From Chloroflexota bacterium (lineage in GTDB: Bacteria; Chloroflexota; Dormibacteria; Dormibacterales; Dormibacteraceae), in the NCBI GenBank assembly GCA_005880175.1, contig VBJR01000206.1, positions 2,094 to 9,067 on the forward strand: a stretch of DNA of 6,974 nucleotides. The letters run 5' to 3'. Every line of letters starts with the position of its first letter. Positions within the stretch are counted from its first letter, which is position 1. This document shows, one piece after another, positions 14-6,851 of this stretch. The notes under the pieces are model-generated. The model searched no databases. It was not told the DNA's origin and was given only the letters and a program-made list of their open reading frames with translations. Both the position numbers and the translations under genes were made by a program.

Positions 14-958
14 CTACTGCTCCAGCAGACGGGCCAGGTGGTCGGCCGCGTCTTCGGCGCGGACGTGGCTGTAGTTCCGCGAGATCATCGTCAGGTCCGC
101 GTGGCCCAGCACTTCCTGAAGCATCAGCGCGTTCATGCCGGAGCGCAGCGCCCACGTGGCGAAGCTGTGGCGCATCGCGTGCGGGTACGCGCGCGTCGGG
201 TCCACCTTCGCGCGGTCGGCGACGCCCTTCATCATCTGCTCGACCGTCCGGCGCTCCAGCGGCTCGTACAGGCCCGTCCGCCGGCTTCGGCGGATCGTCA
301 GGAAGATTCGGTCGGACGCCGCGTCCTTCCGGTCGCGGTCCGCGTACTTGCGTAGTCGCCGGGCCACGGCCGGCGGGCGCAGCGGCACCAGCCGTTCCTT
401 CTCGCCCTTCCCCCTGACCTTCAGGAACCATCCCCGGTCGTTCTGGATCACGTCCGCCGGGCGCAGCGCCAGCAGCTCGCCGAGTCGCAGGCCCGTGTTG
501 CCCAGCACGCGGATGATGAGCCTGTCGCGCTCGGTCTCGGCCGCGTTCTCCATCGCCTCGATCTCGGTGCGCTCCAGCGTGGCGACCACCTTCTTCGGCA
601 CGGTCGGGACCTTCGGCTTGCCCGCCACCGTCTCGCCCTGCGACCGCACGTAGCCCAGGAACACGCGCACCGATCGCGAGTAACTGGCCACCGACGCTTT
701 GCTGAGCGGCTTCCCGTCCGGCCGCGTCTTGTCCAGCAGCGACGTCGTGAACCGGTCCAAGACCCGCTGGTCGAGCTGGTCCGGTCGCTCGATCCCCTGC
801 TCGGCGCAGAACGGCAGGAAGAGCTGGTACACCGGCCAGCGGTACGCCTCCAACGTCCGGACGCTCTTCCCGCCCGCCCGGACCGACCCCAACCAGTCGT
901 CCGCCAGGGACCGCAGCGGCGTCGACGGGGACTCCTCGACCACCTTCAGCCTGGCCAT
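14..958 (-). CDS. Tyrosine recombinase / integrase (Xer-like, compact)
   Basis: Site-specific DNA recombinase of the phage integrase/XerC-D family, 314 residues. An N-terminal SAM-like core-binding domain covers about residues 12-108. The catalytic domain covers about 125-312 and has the complete active-site set: R158 in TGLRLGE, K184 in RGKGEKERLVPL, H260 and R263 in HAMRHSFATW, H286 in LGHADL, and the nucleophile Y296 in RNYSHV. Nothing is truncated. At 314 residues it matches Xer-type enzymes and leaves no room for the extra N-terminal arm-binding domain of many element integrases. The ATG at 958 is chosen because an excellent Shine-Dalgarno (AAGGTGAGG on the minus strand, 965-973) lies 6 nt upstream. 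It reads away from the tRNA-Gln fragment at 1052-1101, whose CCA end is about 90 bp from the start codon, so integration and excision at that tRNA is the inferred job. The family assignment is firm; the target is inferred from position. Confidence 0.95.
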   Translation of the reverse strand: MARLKVVEESPSTPLRSLADDWLGSVRAGGKSVRTLEAYRWPVYQLFLPFCAEQGIERPDQLDQRVLDRFTTSLLDKTRPDGKPLSKASVASYSRSVRVFLGYVRSQGETVAGKPKVPTVPKKVVATLERTEIEAMENAAETERDRLIIRVLGNTGLRLGELLALRPADVIQNDRGWFLKVRGKGEKERLVPLRPPAVARRLRKYADRDRKDAASDRIFLTIRRSRRTGLYEPLERRTVEQMMKGVADRAKVDPTRAYPHAMRHSFATWALRSGMNALMLQEVLGHADLTMISRNYSHVRAEDAADHLARLLEQ

Positions 959-975
959 GGCTCACCTCACCTTAC

Positions 976-999
976 TTCGCATTCGTACGGAATGGCGAA
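976..999. promoter_or_regulatory. Imperfect palindrome over the recombinase -10 (candidate operator)
   Basis: The left arm TTCGCATTC and the right arm GGAATGGCGAA are complementary apart from two one-base bulges (TTCGC/GCGAA and ATTC/GAAT), around a GTAC centre at about 985-988. The palindrome covers the -10 box and part of the spacer of the recombinase promoter. This is where a repressor or an excisionase-type factor could shut the gene off. The symmetry is seen; the role is inferred. Confidence 0.45.
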
Positions 1000-1011
1000 C
1001 CACACCGTCAA
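982..1011 (-). promoter_or_regulatory. Probable promoter of the recombinase gene
   Basis: On the minus strand a -35 box TTGACG (1006-1011) is followed after an 18-bp spacer by a -10 box TACGAA (982-987). The -10 ends 23 nt before the start codon at 958, and a strong Shine-Dalgarno lies between them. Both boxes fit the housekeeping sigma pattern of high-GC bacteria (TTGAC and TANNNT-like). The assignment is by pattern only. Confidence 0.6.
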
Positions 1012-1051
1012 GGGGGTTACCCTCAACTCAGAACCGCTGAAAGAAGGGGGT

Positions 1052-1101
1052 TGGCTGGGGAGGAAGGATTTGAACCCTCGATCTCCTGATCCAGAGTCAG
1101 G
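1052..1101 (-). tRNA. Partial tRNA-Gln(CTG), 3' half; probable attachment site
   Basis: The minus strand carries a canonical 3' half of a tRNA. The anticodon stem is CCTGA/TCAGG (1097-1101 with 1085-1089), enclosing the loop CTCTGGA, with anticodon CTG at 1092-1094 (glutamine). Then come a 5-nt variable region, a T arm (GAGGG, loop TTCAAAT, CCTTC), the acceptor 3' strand CTCCCCA, discriminator G and an encoded CCA (1052-1054). The matching 5' acceptor strand (TGGGGAG) is absent from the preceding 40 nt. A D-loop-like ATGGCGAAGAC lies at about 1107-1117, but it is 5 nt out of register. It is therefore not a working tRNA gene here. Beside a tyrosine recombinase, it is best read as the tRNA-identical core of an attachment site, with about 50 bp of identity or slightly more. 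Confidence 0.75.
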
Positions 1102-1150
1102 CGCCCTGTCTTCGCCATGTGGAGTCGGACATCCCGAACTCACCTTGACT

Positions 1151-1197
1151 CGCCTGACCCACTGGTAACGCGGCGATTGTGCGCCTGACCCGTAGGT
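1151..1197 (+). repeat. Pair of direct repeats CGCCTGACCCnnnGGT
   Basis: The copies are at 1151-1166 and 1182-1197, identical at 13 of 16 positions, with starts 31 bp apart (close to three helical turns, so on the same DNA face). The same CGCCTGAC core, followed by TC, also occurs in inverted orientation at 1094-1103 across the tRNA anticodon arm. They could be accessory recombinase or excisionase sites, or relaxosome protein sites. The recombinase shows no obvious arm-binding domain, which weakens the first reading. Confidence 0.5.
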
Positions 1198-1269
1198 GCT
1201 GTTTTGGGGGTGTGTCAGTGGGTTCGCAAGCCGACCTGCAAAGCCGCGCGTCGATCGATGCGTGTTGAG

Positions 1270-1292: not shown

Positions 1293-1374
1293 GTGAAGGC
1301 CCATTTATAGCTCCTTCACAGTTCTGGAGGGTTACTTGGTAGGTAGCTTCACAGACGGCGAGCGGCTGTGAAGC
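1293..1374. repeat. CTTCACAG repeat cluster in alternating orientation
   Basis: CTTCACAG occurs at 1314-1321 and 1347-1354. An inverted copy CTGTGAAG lies at 1366-1373, and a shorter inverted copy GTGAAG at 1293-1298. They form two stems: GTGAAGG (1293-1299) with CCTTCAC (1313-1319) around an AT-rich 13-nt loop, and GCTTCACAG (1346-1354) with CTGTGAAGC (1366-1374) around an 11-nt loop. Repeated identical half-sites suggest one DNA-binding protein, such as a relaxosome accessory factor, the relaxase itself, or a regulator of the downstream operon. Confidence 0.55.
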
Positions 1375-1377
1375 GGG

Positions 1378-1439
1378 GGGTCTGGGGGCGGAGCCCCCGG
1401 CTGTTCCCTGCACCGAAAACCCGAGAACGCTCCAGACCC
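1378..1439. repeat. Nested inverted repeats (GC-rich)
   Basis: GGGTCTGG (1378-1385) is perfectly complementary to CCAGACCC (1432-1439). Inside it, GGGGGC (1384-1389) pairs with GCCCCC (1393-1398) around a GGA loop. The two stems share bases 1384-1385, so they may be alternative folds. There is no T-rich tail, so termination is unlikely. The position just upstream of the relaxase fits an oriT structure or a 5' leader element. Confidence 0.45.
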
Positions 1440-1516: not shown

Positions 1517-4500
1517 ATGGCAGTGAGCTTCAAGAAGCTCAAGATCGACGACCAGCACCTCTCGGGCGAGCAGCTCGTCTCGTACCTCGCCGACGCGCAG
1601 GCGGCCGGCGACTACTACAGCGAGGAGGAGACGGCGCCGATGAACTGGCTGGCGACGCCGCTGGCCCGGCGCCGGTACGCGCTCGAAGACTACGGGGTGT
1701 CGAAGGCGACGCTGCGCTTCCTGATCGAGGGAACCCACCCGATCAGCGGCCGGAACATCCGGAACCACGGCAGCGACAAGACGATGGTGGGGGCGCAGGA
1801 CATAACGATGAGCCCGGCCCCGAAGTCGGTCAGCATCCTGTGGGCGCTGGGAGATGACCGCTTGCGCTTCGACCTGGAGCGGTTCGTCTTCAAGGCGAAC
1901 GACATCGCGATCGGGCGACTCCTCGACGAGCAGCCGCTCGTGCGCAAGCGGGTCGTGCATGGCTCGGCGGGCATCGTGTCCGTGAAAGCAGTGAACTACG
2001 TGGGCGTCCAGGTCATGCACACCACGGCGCGGATGACGGCGAACGACCTGAAGGTCCCCGATCCGCAGCTGCACGTGCACAACCTGCTGATCGGCGCCGT
2101 GACGCCGACTGGCGAGCTGCGGGCGCTTGACTCCAAGGTGATCCTCGACTACATCGCCGCCCTGGACGCGGAAGCGAGCGCCTACCTGGCCGCGGAGCTC
2201 CAGGCGTACGGGTTCGAGCTCGAATGGAAGCTGGAGTACCGCAAGGAGAGCGGCCAGCCGCGGATGGCGTGGGAGATCAAAGGCGTGCCGCAGAGCCTCA
2301 TCAAGGCGATGAGCCGGCGGACCTCGGAGATCGAGGACCTGAAGGCGCAGTACCGCAAGGCGACTGGCCGCGAGGCCCTGGGGCCGAGCTGGGACGCGTT
2401 CGTGGTCGCCCAGCGAGGCCAGAAGGCCAAGCTCAGCCCGTCCGAGCTGCGGGCGTGGTGGCTCGTGGAGGCCGAGGAGCACGGGCTTGACGCGGCGACC
2501 GTGGACACGTTGGTCGCGGAGGCTGCCCAGCGGCGGGCTGCGGGCATCCGCAAGCCGGACGAGGACAGCGAGGAGGCCGCTGAGCTGCGCCGCCTGATCC
2601 TCGAACACGTCTGCCGGCAGCACGCGTTCGTGCCGGTTGCCGAAGTCGAGAGGCTGGCCTGGCAGCTGGCGGTGACGCGTGTCGACCCGCGCACGGCCGG
2701 CCGGGTGCTGGCCCACATGGTGGGCGATGGCGACCTGATCGTGACCACCGACCAACAGGTCACGACGCTGGAGGTCTTGGCCCACGAGCAGCGGACGCGA
2801 CGAGCCGCGGCCGAGCTGCTGGCCGCTGAGCCAGAGTCGCCGGTTGCGGCCGACCTGGTCGAGGCGGAGCTGGAACGGAGGGCATCGGAAGGCCGCCCTT
2901 TCGATGAGCATCAGGAGGCGTCGCTGCGGCTTGCCGTGAGCGGCGCCCGCTTCGTCTCGATCTCGGGCAAGGCCGGCACGGGCAAGAGCAACACGATGGC
3001 GGCGATGAGCGCGCTCTGGCACGAGCAGAGGCGGCGCGTGATCGCGACGGCCGTTCCCGGCCGCACGGCGCAGAAGGCGGCTGTCGACAGCAACGCGGAT
3101 CTCGTCCTCAACCTGGACCAGTTCCGGGTCCAGGTCGAGAACGGCCAGCTGCGCCTGCGGCCCGGAGACGTGGTGCTCGCCGAAGAGGCAGGCCAGATCG
3201 ACCACCACCGGTATGCCCCGCTGGTCGAGGCCGTGAGCCGGAGCGGGGCGACGCTGGTGCAGCTCGGCGACGACAAGCAGCTGTCGCCGGTCGGGCCGGG
3301 CGGGCTGTGGACCGTCCTGCACCGCCAGGCCGAGGCGGCCGGGCGAGCGACACAACTGCGCGTGGTCTACCGGGCGCACTCGGCCCGAGAGGCGGAAGCC
3401 TGGGACGATCTTCGAGACGGACGGATCGCGCGGGCGCTGACCTGGATTCGCGACGAGGGTCGGCTGCACCTGTACGAGACGCGGCCGGAGCTGCGCGCGG
3501 GCGTGGTCGAGGCGTGGTGGGCCGGCAACCGCGACGGCATGATGATCGTGGACACCTCGAACGAGGAGCGCGACCAGCTCAACGCGCTGGCACAGGCTAA
3601 GCGCCTGGAGGCCGGCGAGCTCGGCGACCAGGTCGTCGAGCTGGCGAACGGGCGGCAGGTACACCGCGGCGACCGCGTCCTGTTCAGCGCGATCTACGAC
3701 CCGCCCGGGCTGCCGCACTCGCTGCGCGTCGAGAACGGCACGCCGGCCCGTGTCCTGCGCGTGGAACCGGAGCACGGGCGGATCGAGCTGCAGTTGGAGG
3801 AGCCGAAGCAGGAGCGCCGGCTGGAAGTCGGCGCCGATGCCCCGATGGAGCTCGGGTACGCCCGGCACGTCCAGAAGGCGCAGGGGGTGACCGTCGAGGA
3901 CACGGACATCGCCGTGAGCCGGCGGACCCGCCGCAACCAGCTCTACGTCATGGGGTCCCGGGCGCGCTCGGGTGCCCGCGTGCACGTGCTGACCGCAGAC
4001 CTGGAGACGGTCACGAGCGCTGACCCGACCGTGTCCTCGCCCGCCACCGCCGAGCGGCCGGGCCTGGCCGCATACGTGGCCTACATCGCCGAGCTGGACG
4101 CGCGCGAAGACCTCCGCCCGGCGGAGCGGGCGGCGCTGGCCCAGGCGGCGGCGGCCGAGTTCCTGTGCCAGCCGAGCGGCGAGGCGTCGCCAGCCGGGCA
4201 GGATGACGAGGAACCGAGCGATGACGAGCTGGCCGTCGAGATGGCCGCGATCGAGGCCGAACGAGCCGAGCGGGAGGCCATCGCGGCACTGACGATTGAG
4301 CAGACCGAGCGCCGCGCCCAGCACGAGTCGACGAAGGAGGCGGTCGGCGACCGGCCGCCCCTGCCGGCCGCGCCTTGGGAGAGCGAGCGCATCGAGCTGG
4401 AGGACGACCGCCAGGTAGAAGACGTCCAGCGCGACGAGTCCCGCGACGACCTCGCCGTTCACGTGCGCGAGCGGGGGTGGGAGCCGCCGGAGCGCGAGCC

Positions 4501-5950
4501 TGCGGCGATCGAGCTTCCCCTCCCTCACCGGGAGCCTGACCTCGCCGCGCTCCAGTTCGACGACGGGACGGCGGTCGCCCGCGGACAGGTCGTCAGGTTC
4601 AGCGACCCGGCGGCGCTCGTGGGCGCTGCGCGCAACGAAGTCCAGCCAGAAGACCTCGGCGTCGTCCTCGGCTGCCACCGCGGCGGGGTGACGTTTGACT
4701 ACGTCACCGTCGAGCTGGTGGGCGGCCGGCGGGTCGAGGTCTGGCAGACGGCTAGCGGGATCACGGTCGAGCCTGACCTGGCGCCGGCGACCGTCCGTGA
4801 CGCGATCCCGCGGCCGGACCAGCGCGACCCGGTCGCGCTGAACGTCTACGAGCTGGTCAACGGAACCCGCCTAATGGCCGGCGACCAGGTCCGCTTCACC
4901 GAGCCCGCCACCCTGGCCGGCGTGGGCCACGTAGACGCGGGCGCTGAGGCGCTGGTGGACGACGTCGAGCGGCACCGGTACAACCGTGCCGTCCTGGCGC
5001 TCGGCGACGGGCGGAAGGCGAGCATCTACCGGGCGGCGAAGCTGGAGATCGTGAAGCCCGCGCAGGAGCCGACGCCGATCCCGGCGCCGGGCGCATCGGA
5101 TTCAAAGCCGGCGACTTCGAACGAGGCAGCGGGGAGACGCGTTCGTCCGAGCATGGCCCGCGCCCTGCCGGCCCGCGACGCCGACGAGACGATCGCGCGG
5201 CGTTACATGGAGTCGCACGACATCGCCGGCAGCCTGGCGCGCTACCGCCATGCCGGCAAGCTGCTCCAGGTCCAGGACCCGATCCACCGCGCGGCCGAGC
5301 TGCTGATCGCCGACCCGGGCAGTGTCGCCGTCGCGATGGACGTCGAGGCGGAGCTGCGCCTGCGCGAGGCCGTGGCAGCCCAGTTGAGCGCAGGCCCAGC
5401 GGGCGGAGAGTCGCAGGCCGCGACCGTCGAGGCGCAGGAGCCGCCCGCTGCGACTCCCGCGGAGGCCCCGACCCAGCTGGCAGCCTTCATCGCGCCGGCC
5501 GGAGCCGATGCGGCGAGCCGGATCGTCCGCGCCGATGTGGCCTACGAAGCGCGCCGGCAGCGGCGCGAAGCGTGGCTGCGGGAGGACCCGGCCCGCGCGA
5601 CCTCGCCCGTGCCCGAGCCGGATGCCGCGCCGCGCGCCTACGTCGTGGCCGGCCATCTCGGAGCGTCGCGTGCGCTGACGCGGGCAGTGTCGGTGGCTGC
5701 GGAGTCGCACATGCTCACGACGCCTCTGCGTCCGTGGCTGGCGCAGGAGGTCGACCTCGCCGCTGCGCGCATGATGACCGCCGACGAACAGGAACCAGGG
5801 AACCCCGCCGAGGCCGACGCGGAGGCGGAGCGAGCCCGCCGGCAGGCCGAGCGGCACCGCGAGCTCGCGTACGAGCGCCGAGCCGACGACCGGACGCCAG
5901 GCGCCGTGCGCGCGTCCGAGCGTGACAGCGAGTCCGAGGCGAGGCGGTAG
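1517..5950 (+). CDS. mobF: MobF-family conjugative relaxase-helicase (TrwC/TraI/TraA type)
   Basis: A 1477-residue protein that should nick one strand at oriT, stay covalently bound to the 5' end, and unwind the strand for transfer. The relaxase domain (about 1-300) has a tyrosine pair Y33-Y34 in GDYY, then GAQDITMSPAPKSVSILWAL (92-111). The metal-binding three-histidine motif is H168 in HTTAR with H186 and H188 in DPQLHVH. A RecD-like superfamily 1 helicase (about 420-830) follows: Walker A GKAGTGKS (484-491), motif II EEAGQ (556-560, E where D is usual), GDDKQLSPVGPGG (584-596), an SH3-like insertion (about 705-771), YARHVQKAQG (781-790) and a final LYVMGSRAR (809-817). Residues 840-1010 are acidic and probably helical. 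Two SH3-like modules (1011-1086, 1111-1181) and a charged helical tail complete the protein. The ATG is preceded by GAGGAG, 13 nt away, a rather long spacing. It appears intact and heads an operon with the next two genes. Confidence 0.93.
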   Translation: MAVSFKKLKIDDQHLSGEQLVSYLADAQAAGDYYSEEETAPMNWLATPLARRRYALEDYGVSKATLRFLIEGTHPISGRNIRNHGSDKTMVGAQDITMSPAPKSVSILWALGDDRLRFDLERFVFKANDIAIGRLLDEQPLVRKRVVHGSAGIVSVKAVNYVGVQVMHTTARMTANDLKVPDPQLHVHNLLIGAVTPTGELRALDSKVILDYIAALDAEASAYLAAELQAYGFELEWKLEYRKESGQPRMAWEIKGVPQSLIKAMSRRTSEIEDLKAQYRKATGREALGPSWDAFVVAQRGQKAKLSPSELRAWWLVEAEEHGLDAATVDTLVAEAAQRRAAGIRKPDEDSEEAAELRRLILEHVCRQHAFVPVAEVERLAWQLAVTRVDPRTAGRVLAHMVGDGDLIVTTDQQVTTLEVLAHEQRTRRAAAELLAAEPESPVAADLVEAELERRASEGRPFDEHQEASLRLAVSGARFVSISGKAGTGKSNTMAAMSALWHEQRRRVIATAVPGRTAQKAAVDSNADLVLNLDQFRVQVENGQLRLRPGDVVLAEEAGQIDHHRYAPLVEAVSRSGATLVQLGDDKQLSPVGPGGLWTVLHRQAEAAGRATQLRVVYRAHSAREAEAWDDLRDGRIARALTWIRDEGRLHLYETRPELRAGVVEAWWAGNRDGMMIVDTSNEERDQLNALAQAKRLEAGELGDQVVELANGRQVHRGDRVLFSAIYDPPGLPHSLRVENGTPARVLRVEPEHGRIELQLEEPKQERRLEVGADAPMELGYARHVQKAQGVTVEDTDIAVSRRTRRNQLYVMGSRARSGARVHVLTADLETVTSADPTVSSPATAERPGLAAYVAYIAELDAREDLRPAERAALAQAAAAEFLCQPSGEASPAGQDDEEPSDDELAVEMAAIEAERAEREAIAALTIEQTERRAQHESTKEAVGDRPPLPAAPWESERIELEDDRQVEDVQRDESRDDLAVHVRERGWEPPEREPAAIELPLPHREPDLAALQFDDGTAVARGQVVRFSDPAALVGAARNEVQPEDLGVVLGCHRGGVTFDYVTVELVGGRRVEVWQTASGITVEPDLAPATVRDAIPRPDQRDPVALNVYELVNGTRLMAGDQVRFTEPATLAGVGHVDAGAEALVDDVERHRYNRAVLALGDGRKASIYRAAKLEIVKPAQEPTPIPAPGASDSKPATSNEAAGRRVRPSMARALPARDADETIARRYMESHDIAGSLARYRHAGKLLQVQDPIHRAAELLIADPGSVAVAMDVEAELRLREAVAAQLSAGPAGGESQAATVEAQEPPAATPAEAPTQLAAFIAPAGADAASRIVRADVAYEARRQRREAWLREDPARATSPVPEPDAAPRAYVVAGHLGASRALTRAVSVAAESHMLTTPLRPWLAQEVDLAAARMMTADEQEPGNPAEADAEAERARRQAERHRELAYERRADDRTPGAVRASERDSESEARR
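2807..2881 (+). repeat. Intragenic repeat, copy 1 (relaxase residues 431-455)
   Basis: Segment beginning AAELLAAEP and ending VEAELERR, just before the helicase motor. It matches residues 1259-1283 at 15 of 25 positions without gaps. At the DNA level it shares two 15-bp identical blocks with that copy, gcggccgagctgctg (2807-2821) and gtcgaggcggagctg (2858-2872). Confidence 0.55.
4547..5059 (+). repeat. Tandem SH3/KOW-like modules in the relaxase C-terminal region
   Basis: Module A (residues 1011-1086) contains DDGTAVARGQVVRFSDPAAL and module B (1111-1181) contains VNGTRLMAGDQVRFTEPATL. They share G-T-x4-G-x-V-R-F-x2-P-A-x-L-x-G. The helicase-embedded segment at 705-771, NGRQVHRGDRVLF, has the same beginning. 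In RecD-like helicases this type of small beta barrel sits within the motor and contacts DNA. The extra copies may be additional DNA- or protein-binding modules. The repeat is seen; fold and role are inferred. Confidence 0.5.
5291..5365 (+). repeat. Intragenic repeat, copy 2 (relaxase residues 1259-1283)
   Basis: C-terminal counterpart of 2807-2881, beginning AAELLIADP and containing VEAEL. The two identical 15-bp DNA blocks lie at 5291-5305 and 5342-5356. The surrounding region (about 1210-1290) is helical and lacks helicase motifs. Confidence 0.55.
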
Positions 5951-5954
5951 AGCC

Positions 5955-6851
5955 GTGGGCCGCCCCCGCAACGGCACCCCGAAGCGCCGGTACTCCACGA
6001 CGATCGACGCCGCGCTCGCGGCGCGTTGGGAGGCGTTCGCGGGCAAGGGCGCGAACGGTACGGCCGCCCGCCTGCTGGAACGGGCAATTGCCGAGGCGCT
6101 TGCCGCCTCGGACGGAAGTCCGGAACTCCGCGGCCGGCGGCCGGAACGTATCGAGCCCGTCGACACCTTCCACCGACAGCCGTACGGAGTTGCCGCAGGC
6201 GACCAGGTCGGCGAGTTCGAGCGCCGGCTGGCAGACGCCGAACAGCGGATCGAGGACTTGACCATCGGACTGGTGAAGGCTCAGCGGGCGCAGAAGGCCA
6301 GTCCCGAGAAAATGTCGCAGGCTGCGACATTTGCCGACTCCGGCGAGCCCGCCGCCACAGCACGGCCGCGCGGCGCCCGATGGGAGTGGCCCCTTGAGAC
6401 ACTGCTGCAGGACGAGCGCTGGTGGGAGGCGTGGCTGCCGCGCCTGTACGAGCTGCTCGGCCAGGAGCTCCAGGGCCAGTTCGCAGCGGCAGACCAGCTC
6501 CCGAGGGACGCTCGCGGCTACATCGACCTGATGTCCTACCTCTTCCCGCCCATCGGCGACACCGATTGGCGCTCGCCTGCGTACGGGGGGGCAGCCCTCG
6601 CCGCCTCGGCCGCGCCGGTCGCCGCGCAGACGATGCCGCCGACGCTGGGTCCGCTGCGGGGGCACGTGTGGGAACCGGTCGTTCGACACGTGGCGGAGGC
6701 GCTGGCCGCGCTGGAGAGCACGGGGGCGGAAGGGGCGGACGCCTACCTCCGCCTGCGCGCCAAGGCCGAGATCATCGGGCCGTGGTCCGAGGCGCTTTTC
6801 CGGCTGCTCGGCGAAGCCGCGCTCCGGGCGCCTTCCCGCCAGCTCGCGTGA
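5955..6851 (+). CDS. Ribbon-helix-helix-like DNA-binding protein with coiled coil; possible relaxosome accessory or regulator
   Basis: 298 residues, family not recognised. The N-terminus GRPRNGTPKRRYSTTID (2-18) is basic. Residues 11-50 fit a ribbon-helix-helix: strand RRYSTTID, helix AALAARWEAFA, a GKGANG turn, and helix TAARLLERAIAEAL. Residues 84-112 (FERRLADAEQRIEDL) look like a coiled coil. After a linker come a Trp-rich helical part (142-200, with WEWPLETLLQDERWWEAW) and a helical C-terminus (235-298). The GTG at 5955 is chosen because GAGGCGG (5941-5947) is a good Shine-Dalgarno 7 nt upstream and the start lies 4 nt after the relaxase stop. A GTG at 5922 would overlap the relaxase and lacks such a site. 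Small ribbon-helix-helix proteins such as TrwA and TraY assist MobF relaxases at oriT and repress their operons, so that role is plausible. At 298 residues this is much longer than those. It contains a striking palindrome at 6310-6332. Confidence 0.8.
   Translation: MGRPRNGTPKRRYSTTIDAALAARWEAFAGKGANGTAARLLERAIAEALAASDGSPELRGRRPERIEPVDTFHRQPYGVAAGDQVGEFERRLADAEQRIEDLTIGLVKAQRAQKASPEKMSQAATFADSGEPAATARPRGARWEWPLETLLQDERWWEAWLPRLYELLGQELQGQFAAADQLPRDARGYIDLMSYLFPPIGDTDWRSPAYGGAALAASAAPVAAQTMPPTLGPLRGHVWEPVVRHVAEALAALESTGAEGADAYLRLRAKAEIIGPWSEALFRLLGEAALRAPSRQLA
6310..6332. repeat. Perfect 10-bp palindrome inside the ribbon-helix-helix-like gene
   Basis: AAATGTCGCA (6310-6319) and TGCGACATTT (6323-6332) are perfect inverted repeats with a GGC spacer. 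Read as codons 119-126, the stretch uses AAA, GCT, ACA and TTT in a gene that overwhelmingly prefers G or C at third positions. The DNA sequence therefore seems constrained for a reason beyond the peptide KMSQAATF. No T tract follows. An internal operator, a partition or replication protein site, or a recombination site are possibilities. Confidence 0.6.

Follow-up and report, generated by a model that had tools for sequence, protein, structure and literature searches.

Mobile elements have been described as leaving fragments of tRNA genes behind (PMC9897764), and the Islander collection of 3919 islands comprises 2083 anticodon-centred sites, 3760 3′ fragments, 159 5′ fragments and 125 tandems with two or more members (PMC4383910). 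The stretch of DNA analysed here (the window, 6974 bp) resembles the anticodon-centred, 3′-fragment type of Islander tRNA island (PMC4383910) in its attP-like tRNA 3′ fragment with a tyrosine integrase beside it, tandems of such islands also being known; it differs in showing a joined site, a MobF relaxase on the far side, and a host lineage that is apparently Candidatus Dormibacterota.

In the class Dormibacteria, an 11.7-kb element at tRNA-Gln (L248), a 33-kb MobF element at tRNA-Gly (G046:C28), and both elements of contig G229:C104 carry integrases related to that of the window, theirs lying beside a tRNA whose 3′ fragment recurs distally. A further locus (L373) has, like the window, a tRNA-Gln fragment and then a MobF relaxase gene in the same polarity. 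These relatives differ from the window in being integrated forms, with integrases 27 to 50% and relaxases about 27 to 31% identical to those of the window, and in G046:C28 the relaxase gene lies beside the integrase gene, not at the far end. The MobF ICEs and AICEs of Actinobacteria also combine an integrase with a relaxase and a tRNA target, as in the window; compared with these, no transfer genes beyond the relaxase, no replication genes, and no attL or attR were seen in the 6974 bp. On balance, the tRNA-Gln fragment in the window is probably the attP core of a single integrative element of the MobF type, either conjugative or mobilizable, from a Dormibacteria host, in a circular form (excised or plasmid) or as identical copies in a row.

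The integrase and the adjoining tRNA-Gln fragment

The gene at positions 14 to 958 (minus strand) encodes a Xer-like tyrosine integrase of 314 aa that matched PF00589 with 105.2 bits (cut-off, 27.1); NCBIfam Xer-type models also matched, with scores under their cut-offs. The invariant residues of the integrase family alignment were present (R158, K184, H260, R263, and Y296), and we take these to be the catalytic residues. Among the 120 matches listed, the six organism-named homologues at 45 to 52% identity were all from Candidatus Dormibacteria or Dormibacteraeota, and the nearer homologues, at 82 to 96%, were metagenome proteins without an organism. No relative was found in viral contigs when the window integrase alone was the query, and 80 loci were found there when the integrase alignment was used. 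Six of these 80 were inspected (L081 to L086): a whole tRNA lay beside the integrase in L082 and L085, a 5′ fragment in L081, and none was called in L083, L084, and L086.

The initial annotation had described only the 3′ part of tRNA-Gln(CTG), its 5′ acceptor strand missing, with a recombinase past the CCA and a relaxase on the opposite side, and this arrangement was borne out. Positions 1105 to 1052 (minus strand) aligned with positions 23 to 76 of the 76 in the intact tRNA-Gln(CTG) of locus L168 (genome G001), including the CCA, at 98.1% over 54 nt (53/54; E = 2.45e-22), a match too close to be due to chance. The true span of the fragment, 1052 to 1105, is slightly longer than the 1052 to 1101 originally proposed. 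The sole mismatch is an A for G in the T-loop. This attP-type core corresponds to the last two thirds of tRNA-Gln, and the acceptor 5′ strand and D-arm are missing. ARAGORN called 0 tRNA genes across the 6974 bp, and Rfam RF00005 matched a partial tRNA at 1117 to 1063 (minus strand) with 26.8 bits, under the gathering score of 29; these results and the alignment to positions 23 to 76 ruled out an intact tRNA overlooked by the caller. The distance from the CCA to the integrase start (PF00589 gene, 14 to 958, minus strand) is 93 nt, and that from the other end of the core to the relaxase start (TrwC/MobF gene with PF08751, 1517 to 5950, plus strand) is 411 nt. A tRNA 3′-end fragment thus adjoins the integrase gene, as expected of the attP of a tRNA-targeting element. 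Two features that would have spoken against this view, an intact tRNA-Gln and chromosomal housekeeping genes beside the integrase, were looked for in the window, and none was found.

In the class of Candidatus Dormiibacter spiritus, 110 genomes were compared: the tRNA part was best matched by the tRNA-Gln of G001 (98%), G072 (98%), and G274 (96%), and 105 of the 110 had some match at E ≤ 0.001. Taken with the integrase and relaxase homologues, these matches suggest that the host belongs to the class Dormibacteria or lies close to it. No integrase of the window's family (E ≤ 0.001) occurred within 19 and 14 kb around the tRNA-Gln of G001 and G072, respectively; hence, unoccupied tRNA-Gln sites exist. 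Plasmids and phages yielded no hit when searched at near identity. Exact tRNA-fragment patterns gave 0 matches in viral or genome contigs, misses that mean little because both patterns ran one to three bases past the true core. The ends of the window had no exact overlap at 12 to 200 bases, so that a circle was not demonstrated by the window itself.

The relaxase side of the window

The gene at 1517 to 5950 (plus strand) encodes a relaxase-helicase of the TrwC/MobF type with 1477 aa, which matched PF08751 (152.2 bits), PF13604, and the NCBIfam MobF model NF041492 (132.3 bits; cut-off, 100). Its organism-named homologues at 43 to 49% identity came from six Dormibacteraeota, one Chloroflexi bacterium, and one Candidatus Nephthysia, and two from Solirubrobacteraceae were found at 31%. 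In viral contigs, no relative was found with the window relaxase alone as the query, and a relaxase profile found 2 loci at 24 to 26% identity. The window reaches about 1 kb beyond the relaxase gene, where an ORF at 5955 to 6851 (plus strand; first start at 5922 in the ORF list) has an N-terminus that appears ribbon-helix-helix-like by eye. This ORF had no match in Pfam (5922 to 6851) or NCBIfam (5955 to 6851). The element of the window could be mobilizable only.

Upstream of the relaxase gene, positions 1314 to 1399 (plus strand) contain CTTCACAG twice in direct and once in inverted orientation, with hairpins. The three matches fall at 1314 to 1373, against 0.13 expected, and 0 of 200 shuffles reached three; the fold of 1300 to 1405 (z = −3.17) was better than those of 200/200 shuffles. 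As a guess from these repeats and folds, the region is a candidate oriT or control region.

Layout around related integrases in the class Dormibacteria

An integrase match (E ≤ 0.001) was found in 99 of the 110 class genomes, and the layout was examined for the best 54 rows of these matches (E ≤ 2.5e-45), which are not independent of one another (e.g., L237 and L238 are identical and L240 and L241 nearly so). The search for tRNA fragments used 73 distinct tRNAs, all from the loci fetched, and may have overlooked fragments of any other tRNA. An intact same-strand tRNA lay immediately upstream of 41 of the 54 integrases, at a distance of 71 to 186 nt except in L258 (−77, start misplaced); in L272, which has two tRNAs, the distance was counted to the nearer one. 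The targets were tRNAs for Gln, Gly, Arg, Thr, Pro, Val, and Ala. Ten of these 41 loci repeated the 3′ part of their own tRNA distally, 6.8 to 13.7 kb off within the stretch fetched (28 to 66 nt, 96 to 100% identity), with the repeat beginning at tRNA position 24 to 31 in 8/10, at 11 in L268, and at 48 in L278. No distal fragment was counted in the remaining 31, many of whose stretches were bounded by the end of the contig or reached about 15 kb beyond the integrase; L271 had a weak match (81%), which was left out of the count. This habit of the related integrases, a tRNA neighbour whose 3′ part recurs at the far end, was directly observed, as were the core of the window and its flanking genes. 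Because 41/54 loci have the whole tRNA and 10/41 the distal 3′ part, attL appears to bear the whole tRNA and attR a fragment, and the expectation that attL keeps the whole tRNA thus agrees with the 41 related integrases that adjoin one. A clear tRNA-Gln case is L248, with a whole tRNA, the integrase, and, at a distance of 11.7 kb, a 50-nt 3′ part that matches exactly, an Nramp gene lying outside. The 11.7-kb island also contains a gene for an MmeI-type restriction-modification enzyme (L248:8954-11728) and a serine recombinase gene (8180 to 9019).

Thirteen of the 54 loci lacked an intact upstream tRNA. In six of these, a contig end interrupts the locus or the integrase is truncated (L232, L235, L239, L276, L277, and L282); among the others, a 5′ part lies beside the integrase in L245, L273, and L279, a 3′ part in L265 and L274, and L250 and L281 have no upstream tRNA. 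In the three 5′-type members (L245:8143-15134, L273:5884-15137, and L279:6772-15369), the part beside the integrase covers tRNA positions 1 to 40, 1 to 39, and 1 to 37, respectively, at 100% identity, and an intact tRNA lies 7 to 9 kb off at the opposite side. From this arrangement, these elements seem to supply the 5′ part and the promoter side of the tRNA. The 5′-fragment type is a minority in Islander, at 159 of 3919 islands (PMC4383910). L274 (G001:C67, 16,986 bp) has the appearance of a second attP: its integrase adjoins a tRNA-Gln 3′ part (85.7%), and a whole tRNA is absent. Its contig showed no end overlap and no tRNA by Rfam, and its other genes were non-diagnostic; candidate readings are a circle, a tandem, or a wrongly binned contig.

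A tree built from 62 integrases placed the window's clade (with P0001 to P0004) together with L229 (SH-aLRT, 93). L229 is the nearest integrase among the class loci in the tree and adjoins an intact tRNA-Gln(CTG). The tRNA target changes at least 22 times elsewhere in this tree, and the agreement in target is therefore support from one neighbour.

Tandem and attR-like loci

L265 proved to be part of a tandem on contig G229:C104 (loci L265, L308, L309, and L318), in which two elements occupy one tRNA-Gly(ccc). The order is the whole tRNA-Gly(ccc) at 65116 to 65191, integrase 1, a MobF relaxase gene near 45 to 47 kb, a 3′ part at 13674 to 13723, integrase 2, and a last 3′ part at 9562 to 9617. 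An element of about 51 kb with the MobF relaxase is thus followed by one of about 4.1 kb with its own integrase. It follows from this tandem that a fragment flanked on both sides by element genes can be chromosomal. The main alternative for the window, in which two different elements are stacked at a single chromosomal tRNA-Gln and meet at the fragment, draws on this layout. The fragment would then do double duty, as attR for a MobF element closer to the whole tRNA and as inner attachment site for the integrase's element. The same order is present on G229:C104, and 125 tandems occur among the 3919 Islander islands (PMC4383910); we regard this alternative as possible but rather unlikely.

On the 6117-bp contig of L373 (G238:C37), a gene for a GntR/aminotransferase regulator and a further ORF are followed by a tRNA-Gln 3′ part (44/44 against positions 30 to 73 of a class tRNA-Gln) and, 2.2 kb on, by a MobF relaxase gene (PF08751, 206.5 bits) that reads away from the fragment, with the polarity seen in the window. 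This relaxase is 29% identical to that of the window, and no integrase of the window's family was found on the contig at E ≤ 0.001. L373 therefore shows the relaxase side of the window with other DNA in place of the window's integrase. It looks like an attR, and the DNA beyond the fragment is, as we infer from the one gene, chromosome. An element of this type, if circularised, would give the gene order of the window. The initial annotation had argued that attR is a fragment facing chromosomal DNA and that element genes on both sides indicate attP or a tandem. The first point is matched by L373, where the fragment has a MobF relaxase to one side and, to the other, the GntR/aminotransferase gene and no integrase, and the second is supported by the relatives, the tandem layout being real in G229:C104.

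Among 20 relaxase 5′ regions from class genomes, the contig of L373 (L367) had its tRNA-Gln fragment, that of L374 (L366) had a partial tRNA of another kind, three had whole tRNAs, and the others had no clear one; a weak tRNA-Ser match occurred in L363. The MobF relaxase starts of L373 (4988 to 6115) and L374 (3 to 1295), from two genomes, appeared very similar by eye. The L374 start lies 2.2 kb from a partial tRNA with a good 5′ part and a poor 3′ part. On G046:C28 (L310 with L323), an element of about 33 kb at tRNA-Gly(tcc) has its integrase and MobF relaxase genes side by side; the distal 46-nt part is two bases off the tRNA, and these look like a compensating pair. No element combining the window's own relaxase type with its integrase type was found.

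Candidate arm repeats flanking the core

Thirteen elements with both ends known (the ten class loci with a distal 3′ part, G046:C28, and the two of G229:C104) were used as a reference for repeats in the arms. Direct repeats linking the region beyond the tRNA (integrase side) with the region ahead of the distal part had a mean score of 10.7 in true pairs versus 8.1 in mismatched pairs, and 0 of 20000 permutations were as high. In a restricted test, whose ranges were chosen after the window's repeat had been seen, at least 12 of 15 identical bases were found in 7/13 elements versus 10/182 mismatched pairs. In the window, the candidate arm repeats are GCGAAGTAAGGTGAG on the integrase side (966 to 980, minus strand) and GCGAGTCAAGGTGAG on the relaxase side (1139 to 1153, minus strand), a weak pair with 12/15 identical bases. 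By 12-mers, 71% of mismatched pairs equalled the window pair, and by ungapped score the window pair came 6th among the 14 of its row and 7th among the 14 of its column. Overall, the flanking repeats weakly favour a single element.

For two stacked elements, the comparison is less favourable. The flanks of the window have a weak common arm repeat, as do the flanks of single elements in 7/13 cases. On G229:C104, the pair belonging to element 1 matches at 14/14, and the arm of the second integrase pairs poorly with the neighbour's end (7.0), though the pair with its own far end is not strong either (9.5).

A probable single element and its proposed mechanism

Several lines of evidence argue for one element with attP as its core. 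The core covers positions 23 to 76, the type of block duplicated by the relatives (10/41 loci; start at 24 to 31 in 8/10), L229 adjoins tRNA-Gln(CTG), L373 has the fragment and then a MobF relaxase, and the arms agree at 12 of 15. Counted against it were the G229:C104 tandem, the absence of an end overlap, the ordinary rank of the arm repeat by 12-mers and ungapped score, and the lack of an element with both window types. If this preferred explanation holds, the core joins the integrase end to the relaxase end because what was sequenced was a circular form or identical copies in a row. An assembly chimera, in which the ∼54 bp present at both attL and attR of an integrated element led to the joining of wrong flanks and a false attP, is improbable: a repeat this short could mislead an assembler working with small word sizes and the record is apparently a metagenome contig, but common reads are longer than 54 bp and should resolve it. 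A decayed tRNA or relic attachment site out of use, for which the missing 5′ part and the absence of an intact copy from the window might speak, is very improbable given the 53/54 bases kept, a start near position 23 like that of the verified repeats, and an open integrase gene at 93 nt, relatives lying at 71 to 186 nt apart from L258 with its misplaced start.

For one element, the integrase would recombine the core with a host tRNA-Gln(CTG), probably within the anticodon loop. On integration, the 54 bp of the element would rebuild the tRNA beside the integrase as attL, and the host's former 3′ part would stay beside the relaxase end as attR. Excision would be the reverse, giving a circle on which the relaxase would act in transfer. 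Repeated blocks of the 3′ type mostly start at 23 to 31 and those of the 5′ type end at 37 to 40, which would place the exchange point in the anticodon loop if one point serves both; the block start at 48 in L278 is a misfit. A broader proposal, that the window is a replicating circular integrative element (a plasmid also integrating at tRNA-Gln) of an uncultured Candidatus Dormibacterota, and that an Xer-like integrase family found across the class has shifted between many types of tRNA, uses either tRNA part, and always exchanges in the anticodon loop, is doubtful as a whole.

Significance for Candidatus Dormibacterota

Insertion at tRNA genes by tyrosine integrases is already well known, and nothing in the window departs from this scheme; the mechanism being textbook, it holds little general surprise. 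Candidatus Dormibacterota live in soil and are known chiefly through metagenomes. Judged by title and the start of the abstract, none of the few papers retrieved had mobile or conjugative elements of Dormibacterota as its subject. What is new is a tRNA-targeting MobF integrative element, apparently from Candidatus Dormibacterota. The joined attP, the MobF relaxase, and the matched tRNA target could be a start for an integration tool in such hosts.
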